This document shows, one piece after another, positions 20,859 to 29,597 of a stretch of 30,605 nucleotides of DNA. This DNA comes from Anaerolineae bacterium. GTDB lineage: Bacteria; Chloroflexota; Anaerolineae; B4-G1; SLSP01. The DNA is taken from NCBI GenBank assembly GCA_016934645.1, contig JAFGSL010000218.1, forward strand, positions 1 through 30,605, in the 5' to 3' direction. The position numbers were made by a program, and so were the translations under genes. The notes beneath the pieces are model-generated. The model did no database searches, was not told the DNA's origin, and saw nothing but the letters and a program-made list of their open reading frames with translations. Numbering within the stretch: position 1 is the stretch's first letter; the number at the start of each line of letters is the position of its first letter.

Positions 20859-21500
20859 TCAGTTCTGGCGCACATCTGCGACTTCAATGTCAATAGCTTC
20901 CATCGCACTGACAAGAGCGTCGCGCTCAACGCCACGAACCTTAACCATCATCGCGCCGCCACCATCCGGCTGGTGGAACGTACCTAGGGCGACAATGTCA
21001 CCGCCGAGAGCCGCGATGCTACCGGTGATACGACTAAGCGCACCCGGCTCATCGACGAGGTGCAGTGCCAAGCGCACACCAGCCTGACGCGCGCCCATCA
21101 TCTCCAAAATGGTCTTGAAAACATCGGTCTCCGTGATGATACCCACCAGGCGATCACCATCCATAACCGGAAGACCGCTGATTTTGCCATCGGCCATGAT
21201 CCGGGCTGCCTCTTCGAGGGGGGCACTAGGCGCGACAGTGGTAACGTCCTTCGCCATGATCTCCTCGACCTTAAGTTTGGAAAGCAAATAGCCCACTTCA
21301 TAGACGCTAAGGCTGGTCGCAGGTGACGGTGAAGCGTAAAGCAGATCTTTCTCAGAGATAATACCGATAAGTTTCTGTTTCTTGTTGATGATCGGCAAAC
21401 GGCGCACATTTTGCTGGCGCATGAAGCTCAACGCCTCGGCGACAGGCATATCAGGGCCAATCGTCACAGGGTTAGATGTCATACAGTCTTTGACTAACAT
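20859..21500 (-). CDS. CBS-pair plus ACT domain protein (AcuB-like)
   Basis: A 213-residue regulatory protein. Two CBS motifs form a Bateman module: residues about 7-55 ('MTSNPVTIGPDMPVAEALSFM', 'RRLPIINKKQKLIGIISEKDL') and about 80-133 ('MAKDVTTVAPSAPLEEAARIM', 'SGLPVMDGDRLVGIITETDVF'). An ACT domain follows from about 142 ('LALHLVDEPGALSRITGSIAALGGDIVAL'). CBS pairs bind adenine nucleotides or S-adenosyl ligands, ACT domains amino acids. No catalytic domain is attached. AGGAGG lies five bases before the ATG. It is placed between a duplicated-domain protein and a phosphoesterase. Confidence 0.93.
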   Translation of the reverse strand: MLVKDCMTSNPVTIGPDMPVAEALSFMRQQNVRRLPIINKKQKLIGIISEKDLLYASPSPATSLSVYEVGYLLSKLKVEEIMAKDVTTVAPSAPLEEAARIMADGKISGLPVMDGDRLVGIITETDVFKTILEMMGARQAGVRLALHLVDEPGALSRITGSIAALGGDIVALGTFHQPDGGGAMMVKVRGVERDALVSAMEAIDIEVADVRQN

Positions 21501-22127: not shown

Positions 22128-22220
22128 AACTTATGGAGCTATGCTTGCGCTACCTGCACGAACTCCATAGTGACCGTTGTAAATCTTTCTTACCATCAAT
22201 TAAGCGAAGGAGGCAACACC

Positions 22221-22661
22221 ATGTGGCAAGAGTTCAAGAAATTTGTCATGCGAGGCAATGTCCTCGACCTGGCCATCGGCGTCGTCATCGGAGGCGCGTT
22301 CGGCAAGATCGTGACATCTTTTGTCAACGATATTTTGATGCCCCCAATCGGGGCACTCCTCGGAAAAGTTGATTTTTCGAACCTGTTTATCGACCTGTCG
22401 GGACAGAAGTACACGAGCCTGGCGGCGGCTCAGGAAGCTGGCGCGGCAACGATCAACTACGGCCTGTTCTTCAACACCGTATTGGATTTCATCATTATTG
22501 CATTCGTGATCTTCCTACTCATCCGCCAAATCAATCGGATGAAAAAGGAGGAACCTGCAGCGCCCGCTGAACCGACGACCAAGCCGTGCCCCTACTGCTT
22601 CACCGATATCCCCATCAAGGCCACACGCTGCCCGCACTGCACGTCGCAGTTGGAAGGATGA
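22221..22661 (+). CDS. mscL: Large-conductance mechanosensitive channel with C-terminal zinc ribbon
   Basis: MscL opens under membrane tension to release solutes during hypo-osmotic shock. The 146 residues start [18 protein letters not shown], the conserved amphipathic N-helix and TM1 ('[27 protein letters not shown]'), then the periplasmic loop and TM2 ('[26 protein letters not shown]'). Instead of the usual C-terminal bundle alone, a Pro/Ala linker leads to C-P-Y-C...C-P-H-C at about residues 121-142, a rubredoxin-like zinc knuckle. The ATG at 22221 has GAAGGAGG upstream; in-frame upstream codons are not translated. A strong hairpin follows at 22678. Confidence 0.96.
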
Positions 22662-22677
22662 TTTGCTACTCCACATC

Positions 22678-22708
22678 CACACAGCCCGTCACTATGACGG
22701 GCTGTGTG
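22678..22708 (+). terminator. Strong hairpin after mscL
   Basis: CACACAGCCCGTCA-cta-TGACGGGCTGTGTG, a perfect 14-bp stem with a three-base loop, 17 bases after the mscL stop. No T tract follows, so it is either an atypical terminator or an mRNA-end stabiliser. Confidence 0.6.
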
Positions 22709-22840
22709 ACATCTAGGAAAAAGGTCAAACATTGATGTCTGCCTATTGACAGAGCCACAAATTGTGATAAGTTGGTCTCAATCCAGACATTTCTAACACG
22801 ACCAGAACAAATTACGCCGAATGACACATAGAGGTATGAA

Positions 22841-22949
22841 ACGCGCTATGTGACAACGGGGGAACCAGGTTGGGGGCGAATCGCTGACAGTAGTGTCATC
22901 GTAGGGCAACCTTCTTCAGCCCAAGCCCGACAGCTAACCTCGTAGGCGT
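22841..22949 (+). ncRNA. Cyclic di-AMP riboswitch (ydaO/yuaA leader)
   Basis: I recognise the conserved core of the ydaO motif from memory: 'ACGGGGGAACCAGG' (22855-22868), 'GGGGGCGAATC' (22872-22882), a variable hairpin TGACA-gtag-TGTCA (22885-22898), 'GTAGGGCAACC' (22901-22911), 'GCCCAAGCCCGACAGCTAAC' (22919-22938) and 'CTCGTAGGCG'. The ends ACGCgCTA (22841-22848) and TAGGCGT (22943-22949) can form P1. Known members bind two c-di-AMP molecules and usually switch expression off, mostly over cell-wall hydrolases and ion/osmolyte transport genes. An intrinsic terminator follows at once. The remaining bases of the 22662-23023 gap upstream (22709-22840) show only a weak TTGACA-like box near 22746. 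Confidence 0.87.
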
Positions 22950-22965
22950 GACGGGACCCGTCACC

Positions 22966-23005
22966 GAAGAAGGACACCTTGTGTTGCAAGGTGCCTTTTT
23001 GTTTT
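22966..23005 (+). terminator. Riboswitch expression platform: intrinsic terminator
   Basis: CACCTTG (22975-22981) pairs with CAAGGTG (22987-22993), extendable by GG/CC around a bulged A, and is followed by TTTTTGTTTT (22996-23005). The preceding GAAGAAGG (22966-22973) is fully complementary to CCTTCTTC (22910-22917) inside the aptamer and its last two G belong to the terminator stem, so aptamer folding and termination can be linked. Confidence 0.9.
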
Positions 23006-23023
23006 ATAGTTCTGAGGATCATA

Positions 23024-24946
23024 ATGCACAAGATTCTTATAACTCCAGGCTCTTTCCTTGTCGGTACAAACTACTGGGCTTCGCACGCGGGGACGGCGAT
23101 GTGGCGCGATTGGCAGGCCGACGTAGTGGAGCGCGATTTTAGGACGTTGGCGGAAGAAGGCTTGCAAGTGCTGCGCGTCTTCCCGCTCTGGCCTGATTTC
23201 CAACCCATCACGCAATTGTATGGCGGCACAGGCCGCCCTGTCGAAATCCGTCACGGTGAGGAACCACTGCCGGAAACTGAGGCTGGTCAGGCAGGCGTCT
23301 CCATAGAGGCCATTCAGCGTTTCGAAGAATTCATGCGGTTGGCGGCAAAGCACAACCTCAAGCTTATCGTTGGCTTGATCACCGGCTGGATGAGTGGGCG
23401 GTTGTTTGTCCCGCCTGCTTTGGAAGGGCGCAATGTACTCACCGACCCGGTTGCGCTGCTATGGGAAATGCGTTTGGTGCGGTACTTTGTGCGCTACTTC
23501 AAGGACAATCCTGCCATCGCCGCGTGGGATTTGGGCAACGAGTGCAACTGTATGGCTCCGGTTCCCCATCACGAGGCCGCATGGACGTGGACGGCGACCA
23601 TTGTCAACGCCATCCGCGCGGTTGACCCCGAACGCCCCATCATCTCCGGAATGCACAGTCTCACGCCGACCGGCGATTGGCGAATGCAGGATCAGGGTGA
23701 GTTGACCGACGTGCTGACGACGCATCCCTATCCGGTTTTCACGCCGTACTGCAACCAGGATCCCGTTAACACGATCCGAACGCAACTTCACGCGACGGCG
23801 GAATCGCTGTTCTACGCCGAACTGGGCGGCAAGCCGTGTTTTGCCGAAGAACTCGGCACGCTGGGGCCGATGGTTGCCAGCGATGCGGTGGCCGCCGATT
23901 TTATCCGCGCCGGGTTGTTCTCGCTGTGGGCGCACGATCTCCGAGGTCTGCTGTGGTGGTGCGCCAGTGACCAGACGGCGCTAACGCACGCGCCCTACGA
24001 TTGGCACGCGATGGAGCGCGAACTGGGGTTGCTGCGTTCCGACGGCACGCCAAAACCTGTCATCAAGGAATTGGGGAAGTTTCGCGCCTTGGTGGACGGA
24101 TTACCCCAGCCGTTACCGCCGCGCGTGAAAGAGGCAGTCTGTATCCTCAGCGATGCACAGGATCAGTGGGGCGTGGCATACAGCACATTCATCCTGGCAA
24201 AGCAGGCCGGTTTCGATCTGGAATTTCAGTACGAAACACAGCCGCTCAAGGATGCAGGTCTCTACCTGCTGCCTTGCATCAGCGGGCACCGGGTGATCCA
24301 TCGCCGCAGATACATGAAGTTGATGGCACGTGTAGCGGAAGGCGCTACGCTCTACATCTCATACGCGGGTGGTTTCATGAGCCAGTTTGAGGAATTGACC
24401 GGCTTGCGAGTGCTCACACGCTTCCGGGGGATGAGGGAGACAGCGTTTGCGTGGGTCGATACAGACTTCACACTTGGTGGTGACTACAAACTAACCTTGG
24501 AATCCGTCCGAGCCGAGGTATTGGGTGTCGAAACAGATGGTAATCCGGCGTTCACGCGCGCGCCGTATGGCAAGGGATGGGTTTATTTCCTTGGTTTCCC
24601 GCTGGAGATGGCCCTCACGACCACGCCTGGCGCGTTCCACACCCCAGAGGCGCAGCCGTTCTGGAAGCTCTATCGCGCCATTGCGCAGCCCTTTATGCAG
24701 AAGCGCGCCATCGTCAAGCATCACCCTATGCTTGGCGTGACCGAACACCCGCTTGATACGCTCCGCCGCGTCGTGGTCGTCATCAACTACAGCCCCGAAC
24801 CGGTAGAGACCACGCTGGACCTAGCACCGGGTTGGACGTTGGGGCCGGTCTGGTATGGCGTGCCTACTCGCGCATCAGGGTCGACTGTAGAGATCTCGCT
24901 GCCACAAAATGACGCTTACGTGGCGATTGTCGAAAAGCAAGCATAA
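23024..24946 (+). CDS. Clan-A glycoside hydrolase-like protein (GH5/GH42-like) under c-di-AMP riboswitch
   Basis: A 640-residue predicted (beta/alpha)8 glycosidase with a C-terminal GH42-like region. The N-terminus 'FLVGTNYWASHAGTAMWRDW' matches strand 1 of GH5-type barrels; W-D-L-G-N-E-C-N carries the acid/base Glu173 after strand 4, and 'CFAEELGTLG' carries the nucleophile (Glu275 or 276). From about residue 370 a second domain ('AVCILSDAQDQWGVAYSTFILAKQAGFDL', 'LYISYAGGF') looks like the trimerisation/GATase-like domain of GH42 enzymes, then a beta domain closes the chain. No signal peptide, so probably cytoplasmic. GAGG precedes the ATG at 23024, 18 bases after the riboswitch terminator. 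Substrate unknown; first gene of the operon with two DUF362 genes and a DapA-like gene. Confidence 0.85.
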   Translation: MHKILITPGSFLVGTNYWASHAGTAMWRDWQADVVERDFRTLAEEGLQVLRVFPLWPDFQPITQLYGGTGRPVEIRHGEEPLPETEAGQAGVSIEAIQRFEEFMRLAAKHNLKLIVGLITGWMSGRLFVPPALEGRNVLTDPVALLWEMRLVRYFVRYFKDNPAIAAWDLGNECNCMAPVPHHEAAWTWTATIVNAIRAVDPERPIISGMHSLTPTGDWRMQDQGELTDVLTTHPYPVFTPYCNQDPVNTIRTQLHATAESLFYAELGGKPCFAEELGTLGPMVASDAVAADFIRAGLFSLWAHDLRGLLWWCASDQTALTHAPYDWHAMERELGLLRSDGTPKPVIKELGKFRALVDGLPQPLPPRVKEAVCILSDAQDQWGVAYSTFILAKQAGFDLEFQYETQPLKDAGLYLLPCISGHRVIHRRRYMKLMARVAEGATLYISYAGGFMSQFEELTGLRVLTRFRGMRETAFAWVDTDFTLGGDYKLTLESVRAEVLGVETDGNPAFTRAPYGKGWVYFLGFPLEMALTTTPGAFHTPEAQPFWKLYRAIAQPFMQKRAIVKHHPMLGVTEHPLDTLRRVVVVINYSPEPVETTLDLAPGWTLGPVWYGVPTRASGSTVEISLPQNDAYVAIVEKQA

Positions 24947-24985
24947 AATAACGTTTCAATGGTTTATTCAGGAGTAAAAATAATA

Positions 24986-26245
24986 ATGGTAGACACAAAC
25001 ACTGATTACAGAGTTCGCGCCGTATATTGTGACCACAAGGCCGCCGATGACACCGTTTACGAAGCACTGCGACGTGCGACGCTGCCTCTGGAGCGTTCCT
25101 GGGCAAAACTTCGACAGGCGAAGCGCATCGCGATTAAGTTCAACCAGGACTGGGTGCTCAGCCATGTGGTCTATTTCGAAGGCCAGCGCCGCCAACTGGT
25201 AAGCGACAGCGTGGCGCGCGCGGTATTGCGCCTGCTGCGCGAGGAGACCTCCGCCGAGTTGATCTGCGTTGACGCAAGCTACTACGTGATGTACCAGGAA
25301 AACGCCCACACTGTCGCTGACACAACGAACCTTGATGCAATCCTGCGTGAGTTCGATGTGCCGTACATCGACGGCACGCAGCCGCCGTACAAGGTTGTTG
25401 GCGTGCCTGGCGGTGGGCAGATGTTCGAGCAATACGGGATGATGCAGGACGTGGTCGATGCCGACGCAGTCGTCTCCGTGGCAAAGATGAAGAACCACGC
25501 CTACATGGGCGTCACCGGCTGCCTCAAGAACCTCTTTGGGCTGATGCCGGGGGTGATGCCAAGCCGCCCGCGCCACTACTACCATCACCTGGTGCGGATG
25601 CCCTATATGCTGGCGGACATCGGGCGCATCATCAATCCCGCGCTCAACATCGTGGATGCGCTGGTGGGTCAGGCCGGTTCCGAGTGGGGACGCGAACCCG
25701 ACGTCGGACGCATCGTCGATGCCCTTATCGCGGGCGACCACGTCATCGCCACCGACGCATGCGTGACGCACCTGATGGGCCACGATCCGCAGAGTGACTG
25801 GCTCACTGAGCCGTTCCACCGCGACCGCAACGCGCTCCTGGCAGCAGCGGAAAGTGGTTTTGGAACAGTAAACCTGGATGAGATTGACTTTGAGTCGGAG
25901 GTCGAACCGCAACCCGAAGGGACGTTCTTCTCCAGAAAAGGCGATGATCTGCGCACCGTCGTCACCTGGCGGCGCACGATGTGTGAGCAAGCGCTTTACT
26001 ATCGCGATCACCAACGTGACTTCACAGACAGGTACGCCGGCGAATTCATCCTACTCCAGGATGGCGAGGTAAAGTGGCACGACACCGATGGGATGCTGCG
26101 CGTCAGCCGTCGCCAACTCGCCGGTGCGCACCGCGATCATGCGATGTTCTTCAAGTACGTCGATCCCGAAGATCGCGAGCAGGAGCACTACGAAGTCTAC
26201 GAAAAAGCGTTACATCATGTCAAAGGTCTAGGGTCCAAAGTCTAG
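24986..26245 (+). CDS. DUF362-family protein, first tandem copy
   Basis: A 419-residue protein of the DUF362 family, function unknown. Recognised blocks: 'IAIKFNQDW' (about 47), 'VARAVLRLLREE', 'DADAVVSVAKMKNHAYMGVTGCLKNLFGLMPG' (about 160-190) with the K-M-K-N-H motif, 'RHYYHHLVRMPYMLADIGRIINPALNIVDAL' and 'VDALIAGDHVIATDA'. It lacks the ferredoxin Cys clusters found in some DUF362 proteins. The ATG at 24986 has AGGAG 11 bases upstream; another ATG at 24959 has no ribosome binding site. It starts 39 bases after the glycosidase stop. The 3' end reads into a foldback that spans the stop codon, so the last residues (G-L-G-S-K-V) may be repeat-derived. Confidence 0.85.
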   Translation: MVDTNTDYRVRAVYCDHKAADDTVYEALRRATLPLERSWAKLRQAKRIAIKFNQDWVLSHVVYFEGQRRQLVSDSVARAVLRLLREETSAELICVDASYYVMYQENAHTVADTTNLDAILREFDVPYIDGTQPPYKVVGVPGGGQMFEQYGMMQDVVDADAVVSVAKMKNHAYMGVTGCLKNLFGLMPGVMPSRPRHYYHHLVRMPYMLADIGRIINPALNIVDALVGQAGSEWGREPDVGRIVDALIAGDHVIATDACVTHLMGHDPQSDWLTEPFHRDRNALLAAAESGFGTVNLDEIDFESEVEPQPEGTFFSRKGDDLRTVVTWRRTMCEQALYYRDHQRDFTDRYAGEFILLQDGEVKWHDTDGMLRVSRRQLAGAHRDHAMFFKYVDPEDREQEHYEVYEKALHHVKGLGSKV

Positions 26246-26282
26246 CGTCACTCGCCCTCAATCCCCGGCGTTGGACTTTGGA
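26234..26282. repeat. Foldback repeat across the stop codon of the first DUF362 gene
   Basis: TCCAAAGTC (26234-26242) and GACTTTGGA (26274-26282) are perfect inverted copies, with further related words (AAAGGTCTAGGG, TTTGACTTTCGAC) around them. The left arm is coding, the right arm is in the 78-base gap to the next gene. Confidence 0.65.
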
Positions 26283-26323
26283 TATTTGACTTTCGACTGA
26301 TTCAAAAAGGAGATCATTCAACG

Positions 26324-27577
26324 ATGGATACTCAAAAGGAAAAATACTGTGTTCGTGCCGTCCATTGCGATTATCGCGCCGAAGATGAGGCCGTGTACGA
26401 GGCGCTGAAGCGTGCCACTGCGCCGTTGACCAGAGCCTGGGACAAGTTGCGTGCGGCGAAGACCATCGCCATTAAATTCAATCAGGACTACGATCCACGT
26501 CGCACACCCTACTTTGAGGGCATACGCCTGCAGTTGGTGAGTGATACCGTCGCGCGGGCTGTGATCCGCCTGTTGCGCGAAAACACGGATGCCGATCTGT
26601 TCTACACCGACATCACCGTCTTTCACCGCGAAGACACCTACGATCCGGTGGAATCGACACAAATCGCGGCGTTGATGCGTGATCTCGCCGTGCGCTATGA
26701 CAATGCGAATATGCCACCTTTTGACGTTTACCAGGTGCCGGATGGGGGACAGATGTTCCGCCAGTACGTGATGCCGGAGCGCATCATGCAGGCCGATGCG
26801 CTGGTGAATGTTCAGCGGATGAAGAACCATGCCTTTATGGGCATCACGCTTACGCTCAAGAATCTCTTTGGCCTGGTGCCGATGCGTGAACCGGACGGCC
26901 GATCGCGCCAATACTTTCACCACCTGGTGCGGATGCCCTATATGCTGGCTGACATCGGGCGGCTCCTCAATCCTACATTGAACATCATCGACGCCCTTAT
27001 TGCGCAGACAGGCGGCGAATGGAGCGCGACAGGACAGGAGGCGCCACGCATCGTCAACGCCCTCATCGCAGGCGATCACCCCATCACCACCGATGTTGTT
27101 GGCGCAGACTTGATGGGTCTCGACCCGACGGTGGACTGGCTGACCGAGCCATTCCATCGCGACCGCAACCCGCTGCTCGTGGCAGCGGAAGGTGGCTTCG
27201 GCACAGTCAATCTGGACGAGATCGACTGGACTTCCGAGGTTGCACCGCAGTCAGCAGGCACCTTTTTCGCGGCGATGACCGACGATATTGCGCGCGTCAT
27301 CTCCTGGCGGCGAACCACCTGCGAGCAAGCGCTCTACTACCGTGACCATCAGAAGGATTTCATCGATAAGTACGCCGGGCAGTACATCTTGCTACAGGAG
27401 AACGAGGTCAAGTGGAACAGCGAGAGCAGCTACCTCCGAGGCAGCCGCCGCCATCTCTCCGGCGACCGGCCAGGCCAGGCCATGTGGCTCAAGTATGTCG
27501 ATCCCGACGAGGTTGAAGGCGAGCATTTCGAGGTCTACGAAAACGCGCTGGCGGACATTGCAGCGCGCGGGCTATAG
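26324..27577 (+). CDS. DUF362-family protein, second tandem copy
   Basis: A 417-residue paralogue of the preceding protein, clearly alignable along its whole length: 'IAIKFNQDYDPRRTPYFEG', 'VNVQRMKNHAFMGITLTLKNLFGL', 'RQYFHHLVRMPYMLADIGRLLNPTLNIIDALIAQTGGEW' and 'TEPFHRDRNPLLVAAEGGFGTVNLDEIDW'. Most differences cluster in the region after 'LFYTDITVFHRED' (residues about 95-120), where copy one has 'ICVDASYYVMYQEN'. The ribosome binding site AGGAG is again 11 bases before the ATG, as in copy one, which suggests that the duplication included the leader. No enzyme activity can be assigned; the two may form a heteromer or have diverged for different ligands. Confidence 0.85.
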   Translation: MDTQKEKYCVRAVHCDYRAEDEAVYEALKRATAPLTRAWDKLRAAKTIAIKFNQDYDPRRTPYFEGIRLQLVSDTVARAVIRLLRENTDADLFYTDITVFHREDTYDPVESTQIAALMRDLAVRYDNANMPPFDVYQVPDGGQMFRQYVMPERIMQADALVNVQRMKNHAFMGITLTLKNLFGLVPMREPDGRSRQYFHHLVRMPYMLADIGRLLNPTLNIIDALIAQTGGEWSATGQEAPRIVNALIAGDHPITTDVVGADLMGLDPTVDWLTEPFHRDRNPLLVAAEGGFGTVNLDEIDWTSEVAPQSAGTFFAAMTDDIARVISWRRTTCEQALYYRDHQKDFIDKYAGQYILLQENEVKWNSESSYLRGSRRHLSGDRPGQAMWLKYVDPDEVEGEHFEVYENALADIAARGL

Positions 27578-27590
27578 CTGAGAGTCCTCG

Positions 27591-27641
27591 CGCAAAGACG
27601 CAGGGACGCCAAGAAAACTCTAAAGTCTCTGCGTCTTTGCG
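27591..27641. repeat. Foldback repeat of the CGCAAAGACGCAG type
   Basis: CGCAAAGACGCAGGGAC (27591-27607) pairs with GTCTCTGCGTCTTTGCG (27625-27641), 16 of 17 positions, loop of 17. I know this word as a widely dispersed intergenic repeat in several bacterial phyla. It separates the second DUF362 gene from the DapA-like gene and could slow or partly end transcription. Confidence 0.8.
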
Positions 27642-27720
27642 GCTCTGCGGGAGATGTTCACTTTACTGATGTTGTTACCCATTACGGATTCGTGGTTTAC
27701 TTTGTGCAAGGAGGCTCCCT

Positions 27721-28620
27721 ATGACCACTAAAGACTGGCGTGGCAGTTTTGCGATTCCGATGACGCCTTACACGGACGATGATCGCATCGATGAAAATGT
27801 GCTGGCGGCAGAAATTGAGTTTTGCATCGGAAGTGGTGTGGGCGGGATCATGACGCCGTTGATGGTGAGCGAGTTCTTCGTGCTCTCCGAGGACGAGCGC
27901 AAGCTGATGATGCGGCTACCCGTCGAGGTCGCTGCCGGGCGTGTGCCGGTCGTCGCCAACGTGGCGGCGGTGAATACACCGTTGGCCGTCCACTACGCCG
28001 AGTATGCGCAGGCCATCGGCGCGGATGCCGTCATCGCGATGCCGTCCTACATCCACAAGCCCGACTTCGAGACGATCTACGCGTACTACAAGGCCATTTC
28101 CGACGCCGTCACCGTGCCCGTATGGATTCAGAACGCCAGCATCGCGGCAATGTCGCCCGACCAACTGGTGAAGCTGTGCGAGGAAATCGAACACGTGTGT
28201 TGGGTCAAAGAGGAAGTGCCGCCGAGCACCAAGAACATCACCCGCCTGGTCGCAAAAGACAGTCCCGCCATCCACGGGGTGATGGGTGGCGGCGGCGGGC
28301 GACCACTGCTGGAAGAGTACGCGCGCGGCTCCAAAGGCTGCATCCACGCCTGCCAGTTCTGCGACGTAGTGCAGGCGGTGTGGAATCTGCTCGACGCGGA
28401 CGAATGGGATGCGGCAGCGGATTTATTCGAACATCTACTGCCCTCGCTGATGCTGGAAGGACAAATGGGCATGGCGTATTCCAAAGAGATCATGGTCCGG
28501 CGCGGCGTCTTCAAAAACTACAAAATGCGCAACAATGCTAAACCGCTGGACGAACACGATATGCGCGAAATCGACCGCACGTGGGCGCGCATCCAGCCGT
28601 ATCTGATCTGGGGAAAGTAG
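27721..28620 (+). CDS. DapA/NanA-family (class I) aldolase-lyase
   Basis: A 299-residue TIM-barrel protein of the dihydrodipicolinate synthase/N-acetylneuraminate lyase family. The early 'AIPMTPYTDDDRIDENVLAAEIEFCI' and 'GGIMTPLMVSEFFVLSEDERKLMM' match the family (the usual G-G-T-T-G-E/G-S-T-G loop is altered to M-T-P-L-M-V-S-E). The Schiff-base Lys is in C-W-V-K-E-E-V. The strand that normally carries the catalytic Tyr ('YN-x-P') reads V-P-V-W-I-Q-N-A-S, so the Tyr is absent. It is therefore unlikely to be a standard DHDPS; it may act on a sugar acid or be non-canonical. AAGGAGG precedes the ATG. Last gene of the riboswitch-led group. Confidence 0.88.
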   Translation: MTTKDWRGSFAIPMTPYTDDDRIDENVLAAEIEFCIGSGVGGIMTPLMVSEFFVLSEDERKLMMRLPVEVAAGRVPVVANVAAVNTPLAVHYAEYAQAIGADAVIAMPSYIHKPDFETIYAYYKAISDAVTVPVWIQNASIAAMSPDQLVKLCEEIEHVCWVKEEVPPSTKNITRLVAKDSPAIHGVMGGGGGRPLLEEYARGSKGCIHACQFCDVVQAVWNLLDADEWDAAADLFEHLLPSLMLEGQMGMAYSKEIMVRRGVFKNYKMRNNAKPLDEHDMREIDRTWARIQPYLIWGK

Positions 28621-28628
28621 CCCAGGGT

Positions 28629-29597
28629 TCACTTCTGCCGCTTGTCAGCCAGCAGCGCCAGCAAATCATCGACGCGCGAGTTTCCGGGACTGACGCGCCG
28701 CGCATTGTTCAGCACCTTTTCCGCTAGCTCGAAACGCGCCAGGTTGATGTAGGCGACGGACAAGACGAGGTAGGCTTCCACCGTTTCCCTGAGCAGCAGC
28801 CCTTGGTGCAAATGCAAGGCAGCCAAAGCCCACGTCTTTTGCTGGGCATAGGCTCGCCCGCGCAACCACAAGCCCACCTCGCTGCCTTCCACATCATCGT
28901 CGAGGCGCAAGACCAACCTGCGTTCCTTAAACGAGAAGTGATCATAGAGCCTCAAGAGCAATACCAGCGAAAGGAGAGAAAGCGCCACAATCACCACATC
29001 ACTGCCGATAATGCCGGCACGCACCCAGTTGACCCAACGCCCTGCCGGTTTCACGGTAAATGCAAACACCATCTCCGGCGTCAGCGTATCCAAACGGCTG
29101 GTAATGACGATAACGAGCTTGGCAAGCCCGGCAACGATTCGCAGCCCTTCCATAAGCAGCATCACAAAGTAGAGCGGCGGCCACCGGCTGAGCAAACCAA
29201 GAATGATGCAAATTGATAATCCACCGGGCAGCAATGCGAGCCAGAAAAGCCCTCGCGGTACAAGCCCGAAGAGGACTGCCGCCTCATCGGGAGATAAATC
29301 CACCTTACCCAGGTAAATGGGGATGAGTTGCAAAATGCTATCGAGATCGACGCGCATCCCGATGTAGGTGAACAACAACAGAGGGAGCAGCACGCTGAGG
29401 AAGACAAAGATAACCTCCAACTCGACGAGAATCCAATAGGCGGATGAGCGATTTTCCGCTTCGCGGCGCTTGACCCACAGCAGTTGCCCACAAGCAGGGC
29501 AACGCGGCGCTTCCCATTCGGTGGGCGCCGCGCAACAGACACAATTCAACTCGTCATCGAAAATATCTTCGGGTGGAGGTGGACCAAATTTAGGCAT
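28629..29597 (-). CDS. Membrane protein with N-terminal zinc ribbon and C-terminal TPR-like helices
   Basis: A 322-residue protein without a recognised name. Residues 19-36 hold a zinc-ribbon pattern (C-V-C-C near 19-22 and C-P-A-C-G at 33-37). Three or four transmembrane segments follow, about 54-82, 113-140, 142-165 and 200-218. The C-terminal 100 residues are soluble and helical with TPR-like repetition ('GRAYAQQKTWALAALHLHQGLLL', 'AYLVLSVAYINLARFELAEKVLNNAR'). It resembles a membrane-anchored adaptor. Its ATG overlaps the end of the metallo-beta-lactamase-fold gene by eight bases, so the two are one unit; the gene converges on the DapA-like gene with an eight-base gap. Confidence 0.82.
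   Translation of the reverse strand: MPKFGPPPPEDIFDDELNCVCCAAPTEWEAPRCPACGQLLWVKRREAENRSSAYWILVELEVIFVFLSVLLPLLLFTYIGMRVDLDSILQLIPIYLGKVDLSPDEAAVLFGLVPRGLFWLALLPGGLSICIILGLLSRWPPLYFVMLLMEGLRIVAGLAKLVIVITSRLDTLTPEMVFAFTVKPAGRWVNWVRAGIIGSDVVIVALSLLSLVLLLRLYDHFSFKERRLVLRLDDDVEGSEVGLWLRGRAYAQQKTWALAALHLHQGLLLRETVEAYLVLSVAYINLARFELAEKVLNNARRVSPGNSRVDDLLALLADKRQK

Follow-up and report, generated by a model that had tools for sequence, protein, structure and literature searches.

A c-di-AMP riboswitch linked to a pair of DUF362 genes in one order of Chloroflexota

Which genes does a riboswitch for cyclic di-AMP (c-di-AMP) control when the operon behind it belongs to a pathway that no family name describes? 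This question is raised by a 30,605-nucleotide stretch of DNA from an Anaerolineae bacterium (assembly GCA_016934645.1, contig JAFGSL010000218.1, positions 1 to 30,605), referred to below as the window. A preliminary description, made from the sequence alone, had placed a ydaO-type riboswitch over four genes for a glycosidase, two DUF362 proteins and a DapA homologue, and had taken the glycosidase, together with the other three, as the target. We found that the riboswitch is indeed there, and comparison across relatives indicates that DUF362, not the glycosidase, is its conserved target. The finding is thereby stronger than the preliminary description knew, with DUF362 at its centre; no family name describing the pathway was found, as had been suspected. 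The elements are as follows.

22805-22962, + strand: c-di-AMP (ydaO/yuaA) riboswitch aptamer, RF00379 (cmscan, 71.1 bits)
22967-23000, T tail to 23005, + strand: intrinsic terminator hairpin, the expression platform (folding and consensus scan)
23024-24946, + strand: likely clan GH-A (GH5-like) glycosidase, 640 amino acids (closest solved relatives, conserved glutamates)
24986-26245 (alternative open ATG at 24959), + strand: DUF362-A, predicted LarA-fold protein (PF04015, 104.5 bits)
26324-27577, + strand: DUF362-B, paralogue of DUF362-A (PF04015, 96.7 bits; BLASTP)
27721-28620, + strand: dihydrodipicolinate synthase (DHDPS)-family protein, 2-keto-3-deoxy-sugar-acid dehydratase-like (DHDPS, 100.7 bits, cut-off 22.1)

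The riboswitch and its link to DUF362

The aptamer match stands far above the RF00379 gathering cut-off of 38 bits (E 8.3e-15) and covers model positions 1-134, the full length. By sequence, the ydaO riboswitch here belongs to a known class, and c-di-AMP binding is predicted. An expression platform is present ahead of the first gene. The segment 22940-23010 folds with a minimum free energy of -29 kcal/mol, and none of 200 shuffled sequences was equally stable (z -3.86); a small additional hairpin at 22948-22964 precedes the terminator. The end of the T tail lies 18 bases before the glycosidase ATG, the same distance that had been noted before. Of the extent first given to the system, the end at 28620 was exact, whereas the start at 22841 was 36 bases late. 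A consensus scan of the + strand from 22600 to 28700 returned the riboswitch terminator and, within the glycosidase gene, a second terminator-like site; its sole promoter-like site, at 28642, lies past the end of the operon. The scan is weak evidence: both strands together gave three promoter-like sites, where shuffled sequences gave 2.7. The aptamer loop CTTCTTC is complementary to a 3' GAAGAAG. Both are almost invariant across the aptamers compared, so that the pair yields no covariation; when the nine linked aptamers are aligned, two rows fit poorly at their 5' ends.

We collected relatives of DUF362-A from GTDB genomes, where the best 80 of 133 matches gave 78 distinct loci in 73 genomes. 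RF00379 was searched for in all 73 genomes: 20 genomes in a set of 49 had a total of 39 sites, and two of the other 24, by title mostly non-Chloroflexota with DUF362 relatives, had three. The searches of the 49-genome set and of the 48 genomes in the order of one relative, G002, were run with stricter filters, by which weak matches are lost. Of these 48 genomes, nine carry a relative of DUF362-A (E 1e-150 or lower) and 12 carry ydaO; all nine are among the 12. In seven of the nine (G001-G005, G007 and G012) the riboswitch stands upstream of DUF362 and shares its contig and strand, and the contig breaks at the place of interest in the other two: the DUF362 contig of G006 starts inside a major facilitator superfamily (MFS) gene, and G021 has one contig whose last elements are ydaO-MFS-MFS and a second that opens within DUF362-A and continues with DUF362-B and the DHDPS-family gene. 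The window is an additional case of the link. By these counts across relatives, the link between riboswitch and genes is beyond chance, and riboswitch control of the operon, a prediction from the same comparison, is well supported.

The genes behind the riboswitch differ among these genomes. With GH for the glycosidase, the order is GH-DUF362-A-DUF362-B-DHDPS in the window, GH-DUF362-A in G003, DUF362-A-DUF362-B in G001, G002 and G004, MFS-MFS-DUF362-A-DUF362-B-DHDPS in G007, MFS-MFS-DUF362-A in G005, which has DUF362-B and the DHDPS-family gene on another contig, and MFS-DUF362-B in G012. The DUF362-B of locus L013 was taken from tblastn. Because the first gene varies between GH, one or two MFS transporters and none, DUF362 is the conserved predicted target. 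A close homologue of the glycosidase (83%) was found in one of 15 related genomes, G003, within the riboswitch-DUF362 operon, and homologues at 56-61% in three further ones lie apart from the DUF362 genes. With the glycosidase in the operon of only one relative, and MFS or nothing in its place elsewhere, we rejected it as the main target. Of the four-gene neighbourhood initially proposed, the linkage of riboswitch and DUF362 held, but neither GH nor the DHDPS-family gene is constant.

To judge from their sequences, most of these genomes retain two DUF362 paralogues jointly under the switch. A tree of 70 DUF362 rows, from which more distant loci and short matches had been excluded beforehand, supports an A clade of eight rows (100/98) and a B clade of nine (100/99), both containing riboswitch-linked or contig-cut members only. 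The label test on this tree (three changes, as low in 158 of 500 shuffles) sets linked rows against contig-cut ones alone and has no bearing on the origin of the riboswitch link.

The encoded proteins and their surroundings

DUF362-A and DUF362-B share 59% identity (BLASTP) and both score far above the PF04015 cut-off of 24 bits, the only family found at E up to 0.001; a match to Lar_N (PF09861) was absent at that threshold. The predicted structure of DUF362-A resembles the fold of lactate racemase (LarA) over about half its length (Foldseek, VIA), and we accordingly describe the model as LarA-fold. A His/Lys pair occurs at the ten-residue spacing of LarA H174/K184 in 120/120 and 87/87 rows, the two pairs being equated by motif spacing and not by superposition; the lysine of DUF362-A is K181. 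The motif KNH...G.T..LKN is common to both paralogues. LarC was found in 23 of 27 genomes and LarE above cut-off in 7 of 10. We rejected their presence as proof that DUF362 uses the nickel-pincer cofactor (NPN), since LarA homologues, found in 15/15 genomes, already explain these genes.

The best PDB match of the DHDPS-family protein is L-2-keto-3-deoxyarabonate dehydratase (E 1.1e-27, residues 3-294). The Schiff-base lysine K163 is conserved in 121/121 rows. In DHDPS the catalytic Tyr lies in a YNxP motif; the corresponding residue here is Q137 in 121/121 rows, and YNxP occurs in 0/120. We therefore rejected a canonical DapA (4-hydroxy-tetrahydrodipicolinate synthase), as the tyrosine is missing. 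The NCBIfam dapA model is reached with only 72 of 206 bits, and the best NCBIfam match, 5-dehydro-4-deoxyglucarate dehydratase, also stays under its cut-off (91.4 of 278 bits). The "non-canonical" of the preliminary description was thus well chosen.

The glycosidase is closest among solved structures to the endo-beta-mannanase 7bob (E 7.2e-20), with 9y4v and 6gvb also matched. It falls under the curated Pfam cut-offs of both families that it matches, GH5 (Cellulase, 21.3 of 23.5 bits) and GH42M (23.1 of 25.8 bits). N172-E173 and E276 are invariant columns among 18 aligned sequences, and among the 120 rows listed, the window's own sequence included, the NE motif is present in 120/120 and the E-GT-GP motif in 116/120. 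With two glutamates conserved, membership of clan GH-A is still likely. No signal peptide is evident by eye (no predictor was run).

The gene company of DUF362 was surveyed in open reading frame clusters within 7 kb at 79 loci, the window included and many of them short. It comprises DHDPS-family proteins (10), enolase-superfamily dehydratase-like proteins (13), short-chain dehydrogenases/reductases (7) and zinc dehydrogenases (5), the kinds being judged from two representatives for the enolase clusters and one each for the two kinds of dehydrogenase. The enolase representatives hit models for the dehydratases of galactonate, gluconate and mannonate, in each case under cut-off. This neighbourhood suggests non-phosphorylative sugar-acid metabolism, and points rather to sugar acids than to a compatible solute.

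Upstream of the riboswitch lies one further gene of interest:

22170-22661, + strand: mscL, mechanosensitive channel (PF01741, 151.6 bits)

An inverted repeat without a T run sits between mscL and the aptamer, and mscL homologues likewise stand upstream at L002, L003 (partial) and L004. A CBS-CBS-ACT protein is encoded close by on the opposite strand (20859-21500) and also occurs at L002 and L004; some CBS proteins bind c-di-AMP. By eye, a short palindromic repeat precedes the DHDPS-family gene (27578-27720). A cluster of such repeats fills L004:9300-9980, between riboswitch and DUF362-A, a gap of about 700 bases in which no recognisable gene was found.

A proposed pathway and its alternatives

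The switch of Bacillus is off when c-di-AMP is present, and in known bacteria a high c-di-AMP level goes with high K+ or with low osmolarity. Of 27 relatives, 25 carry a DAC (c-di-AMP cyclase) domain. We lean, by a small margin over even, towards a c-di-AMP-repressed pathway for sugar acids or 2-hydroxy acids, whose core is the LarA-fold DUF362 pair under a standard termination riboswitch. This reading builds on the computed aptamer and terminator, the conserved linkage, the LarA fold of the predicted model, the conservation of motifs and the dehydratase-type signature. We infer that at high c-di-AMP the aptamer would hold, the terminator would form and the operon would be off, and that falling c-di-AMP would allow transcription of the four genes, which all run in the same direction (23024-28620) and are presumably co-transcribed. 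A sugar or sugar acid could be supplied by MFS import in some relatives, or by the predicted cytoplasmic GH-A glycosidase in the window. The DUF362 pair would then act on a 2-hydroxy (aldonic) acid, in an epimerase-like reaction or by hydride transfer, and the DHDPS-family enzyme would be a Schiff-base dehydratase of a 2-keto-3-deoxy acid. More tentatively, as a possibility that we hold to be well below even, DUF362-A and DUF362-B might form a two-paralogue sugar-acid epimerase or hydride-transfer system, a new and possibly nickel-pincer branch of the LarA fold with one H174-type His, controlled by a c-di-AMP-binding RNA. If true, this one order of Chloroflexota would have its non-phosphorylated sugar-acid metabolism coupled to osmotic signalling.

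Several results weigh against the proposed pathway. Outside the order, 14 ydaO sites in 11 of 40 genomes include none followed by DUF362, several of the fetched stretches being contig-cut. The DHDPS-family gene is absent from G001-G004 and G012 at E 1e-50, and at E 1e-30 GH is missing in 11 of the 15 relatives, so that neither is essential to the core. Foldseek gives its LarA-family matches low TM-scores, 0.23-0.38 in the best ten, and the VIA alignment covers 213-219 of the 420 residues of DUF362-A. A profile comparison between DUF362 and LarA proteins was not significant (probability 1.3%), one of the ten rows of the LarA profile having a foreign N-terminus and one lacking the searched motif. 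The LarA DxTR motif (R75, the phosphate-binding Arg) occurs in 0/120 DUF362 rows and the GTH motif (H108, the second catalytic His) in 7/120, position unchecked; the LarA mechanism is therefore not simply transferable to DUF362, though other residues might substitute for the two motifs. Among draft metagenome assemblies, LarC was not found in G006, G007, G012 and G033, and LarE was not above cut-off in G007, G012 and G033. The LarC-negative G006, G007 and G012 carry DUF362-A or -B, and in G007 and G012, both operon carriers, LarC and LarE are both missing. These motif counts, the profile comparison and the four LarC-negative genomes of 27 all favour the view that DUF362-A and DUF362-B are not NPN enzymes and use the Lys/His pair otherwise, for example as enzymes of the metal or Schiff-base type, or as binding proteins. 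We give this view a substantial chance, somewhat short of even.

Other explanations concern the operon as a whole. It might make or turn over a compatible solute or glycoside, with GH cleaving a cytoplasmic glycoside and the DUF362 and DHDPS-family proteins recycling the parts when osmolarity changes. The tie of c-di-AMP riboswitches to osmoregulation in the parts of PMC7266159 and PMC3766115 consulted, mscL nearby upstream in the window and three relatives, and a GH without evident signal peptide would all fit, but the GH is in the operon of only one of the 15 relatives and the operon showed no known family for solute synthesis; we regard this explanation as rather unlikely. Still less probable is a riboswitch that mainly controls transport, with the DUF362 and DHDPS-family genes as passengers. 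MFS genes come first in G005, G007, G012 and G021 (contig cut), and transporters are usual ydaO targets in the same parts of those two sources, yet G001-G004 and the window, where MFS genes are missing behind the riboswitch, have kept riboswitch and DUF362. That the copy is decayed or a neighbour by chance, and exerts no control, might be suspected from the 158-base aptamer match with an additional hairpin behind it; the intact consensus core at 71.1 bits, the terminator and the linkage in seven of nine relatives plus the window make this very improbable.

Other ydaO targets and comparison with known systems

The 39 ydaO sites stand before varied genes: an ABC transporter of about 760 amino acids in 15, followed by DUF1854 in 12 of these; DUF362/MFS/GH operons in eight; a microprotein of 47-49 amino acids in six; NuoB/antiporter-like operons in two; and unassigned genes in eight. 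Given this variety, c-di-AMP probably has a regulon in these bacteria, of which the DUF362 operon is one branch. A script searched 40 aptamers, the window's and the other 39, for a hairpin with a U run: in 29 the best one ends no more than 45 bases past the aptamer, in six, including the DUF362-linked copy of G012, it ends farther away, and behind five none was found.

The ABC transporter, assigned from one scanned representative and otherwise by BLAST cluster, is the commonest ydaO target in these Chloroflexota (L109-L111, L116-L119, L122-L125, L129, L132, L134, L135). The single ABC/DUF1854 pair scanned matches the NCBIfam cyanophycin-associated ABC/DUF1854 models best, under cut-off. The microproteins, with a conserved acidic and then R..REP-like core, follow ydaO shortly in seven copies from six genomes (G001, G003 twice, G005, G007, G021, G110), at L121 (two copies behind tandem ydaO), L138, L130, L133, L139 and L193. 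Operons of a NuoB-like protein and a proton-antiporter subunit lie behind ydaO at L113 and L115 (G023, G024). Further ydaO sites, L161-L163 in G064 and G071, were found via Poribacteria (L066) and Latescibacterota (L075) records.

The conserved link to the predicted LarA-fold pair would give c-di-AMP a new output and offers a regulatory clue to the function of a DUF362 subfamily. The searches made of the open-access literature turned up no report of this DUF362 target of ydaO, and an earlier mention is possible. The pattern of one order, nine genomes and a changing first gene makes the link testable with one RNA and two proteins.

The riboswitch resembles the ydaO/yuaA class (RF00379) in its full-length, above-cut-off aptamer, the terminator behind it and the gene just downstream. 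Its targets differ: the parts of PMC7266159 and PMC3766115 consulted name transporters of K+ and amino acids and genes for cell-wall remodelling and osmotic shock, and osmolyte transport is linked to ydaO as well, whereas here DUF362 is accompanied by GH or MFS and by a DHDPS-family gene. Unlike LarA, DUF362-A and DUF362-B match PF04015 and not PF09861, lack DxTR and seldom have GTH. LarA-like enzymes with a single catalytic His are known, and those in the part of PMC12611868 consulted keep H108 and have lost H174; the DUF362 motifs suggest the reverse, with an H174-type His kept and H108 mostly lost. The glycosidase is like GH5-like beta-mannanases and exo-beta-mannosidases in its matches to 7bob and 6gvb and in the conserved NE acid/base and later glutamate, but it scores under the Pfam cut-offs and, unlike GH5-like beta-mannanases, its C-terminal part resembles, under cut-off, a GH42 trimerisation domain. 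The DHDPS-family protein shares with L-2-keto-3-deoxyarabonate dehydratase the Schiff-base lysine and the Gln that replaces the DHDPS tyrosine, although the two are distant (100 bits).

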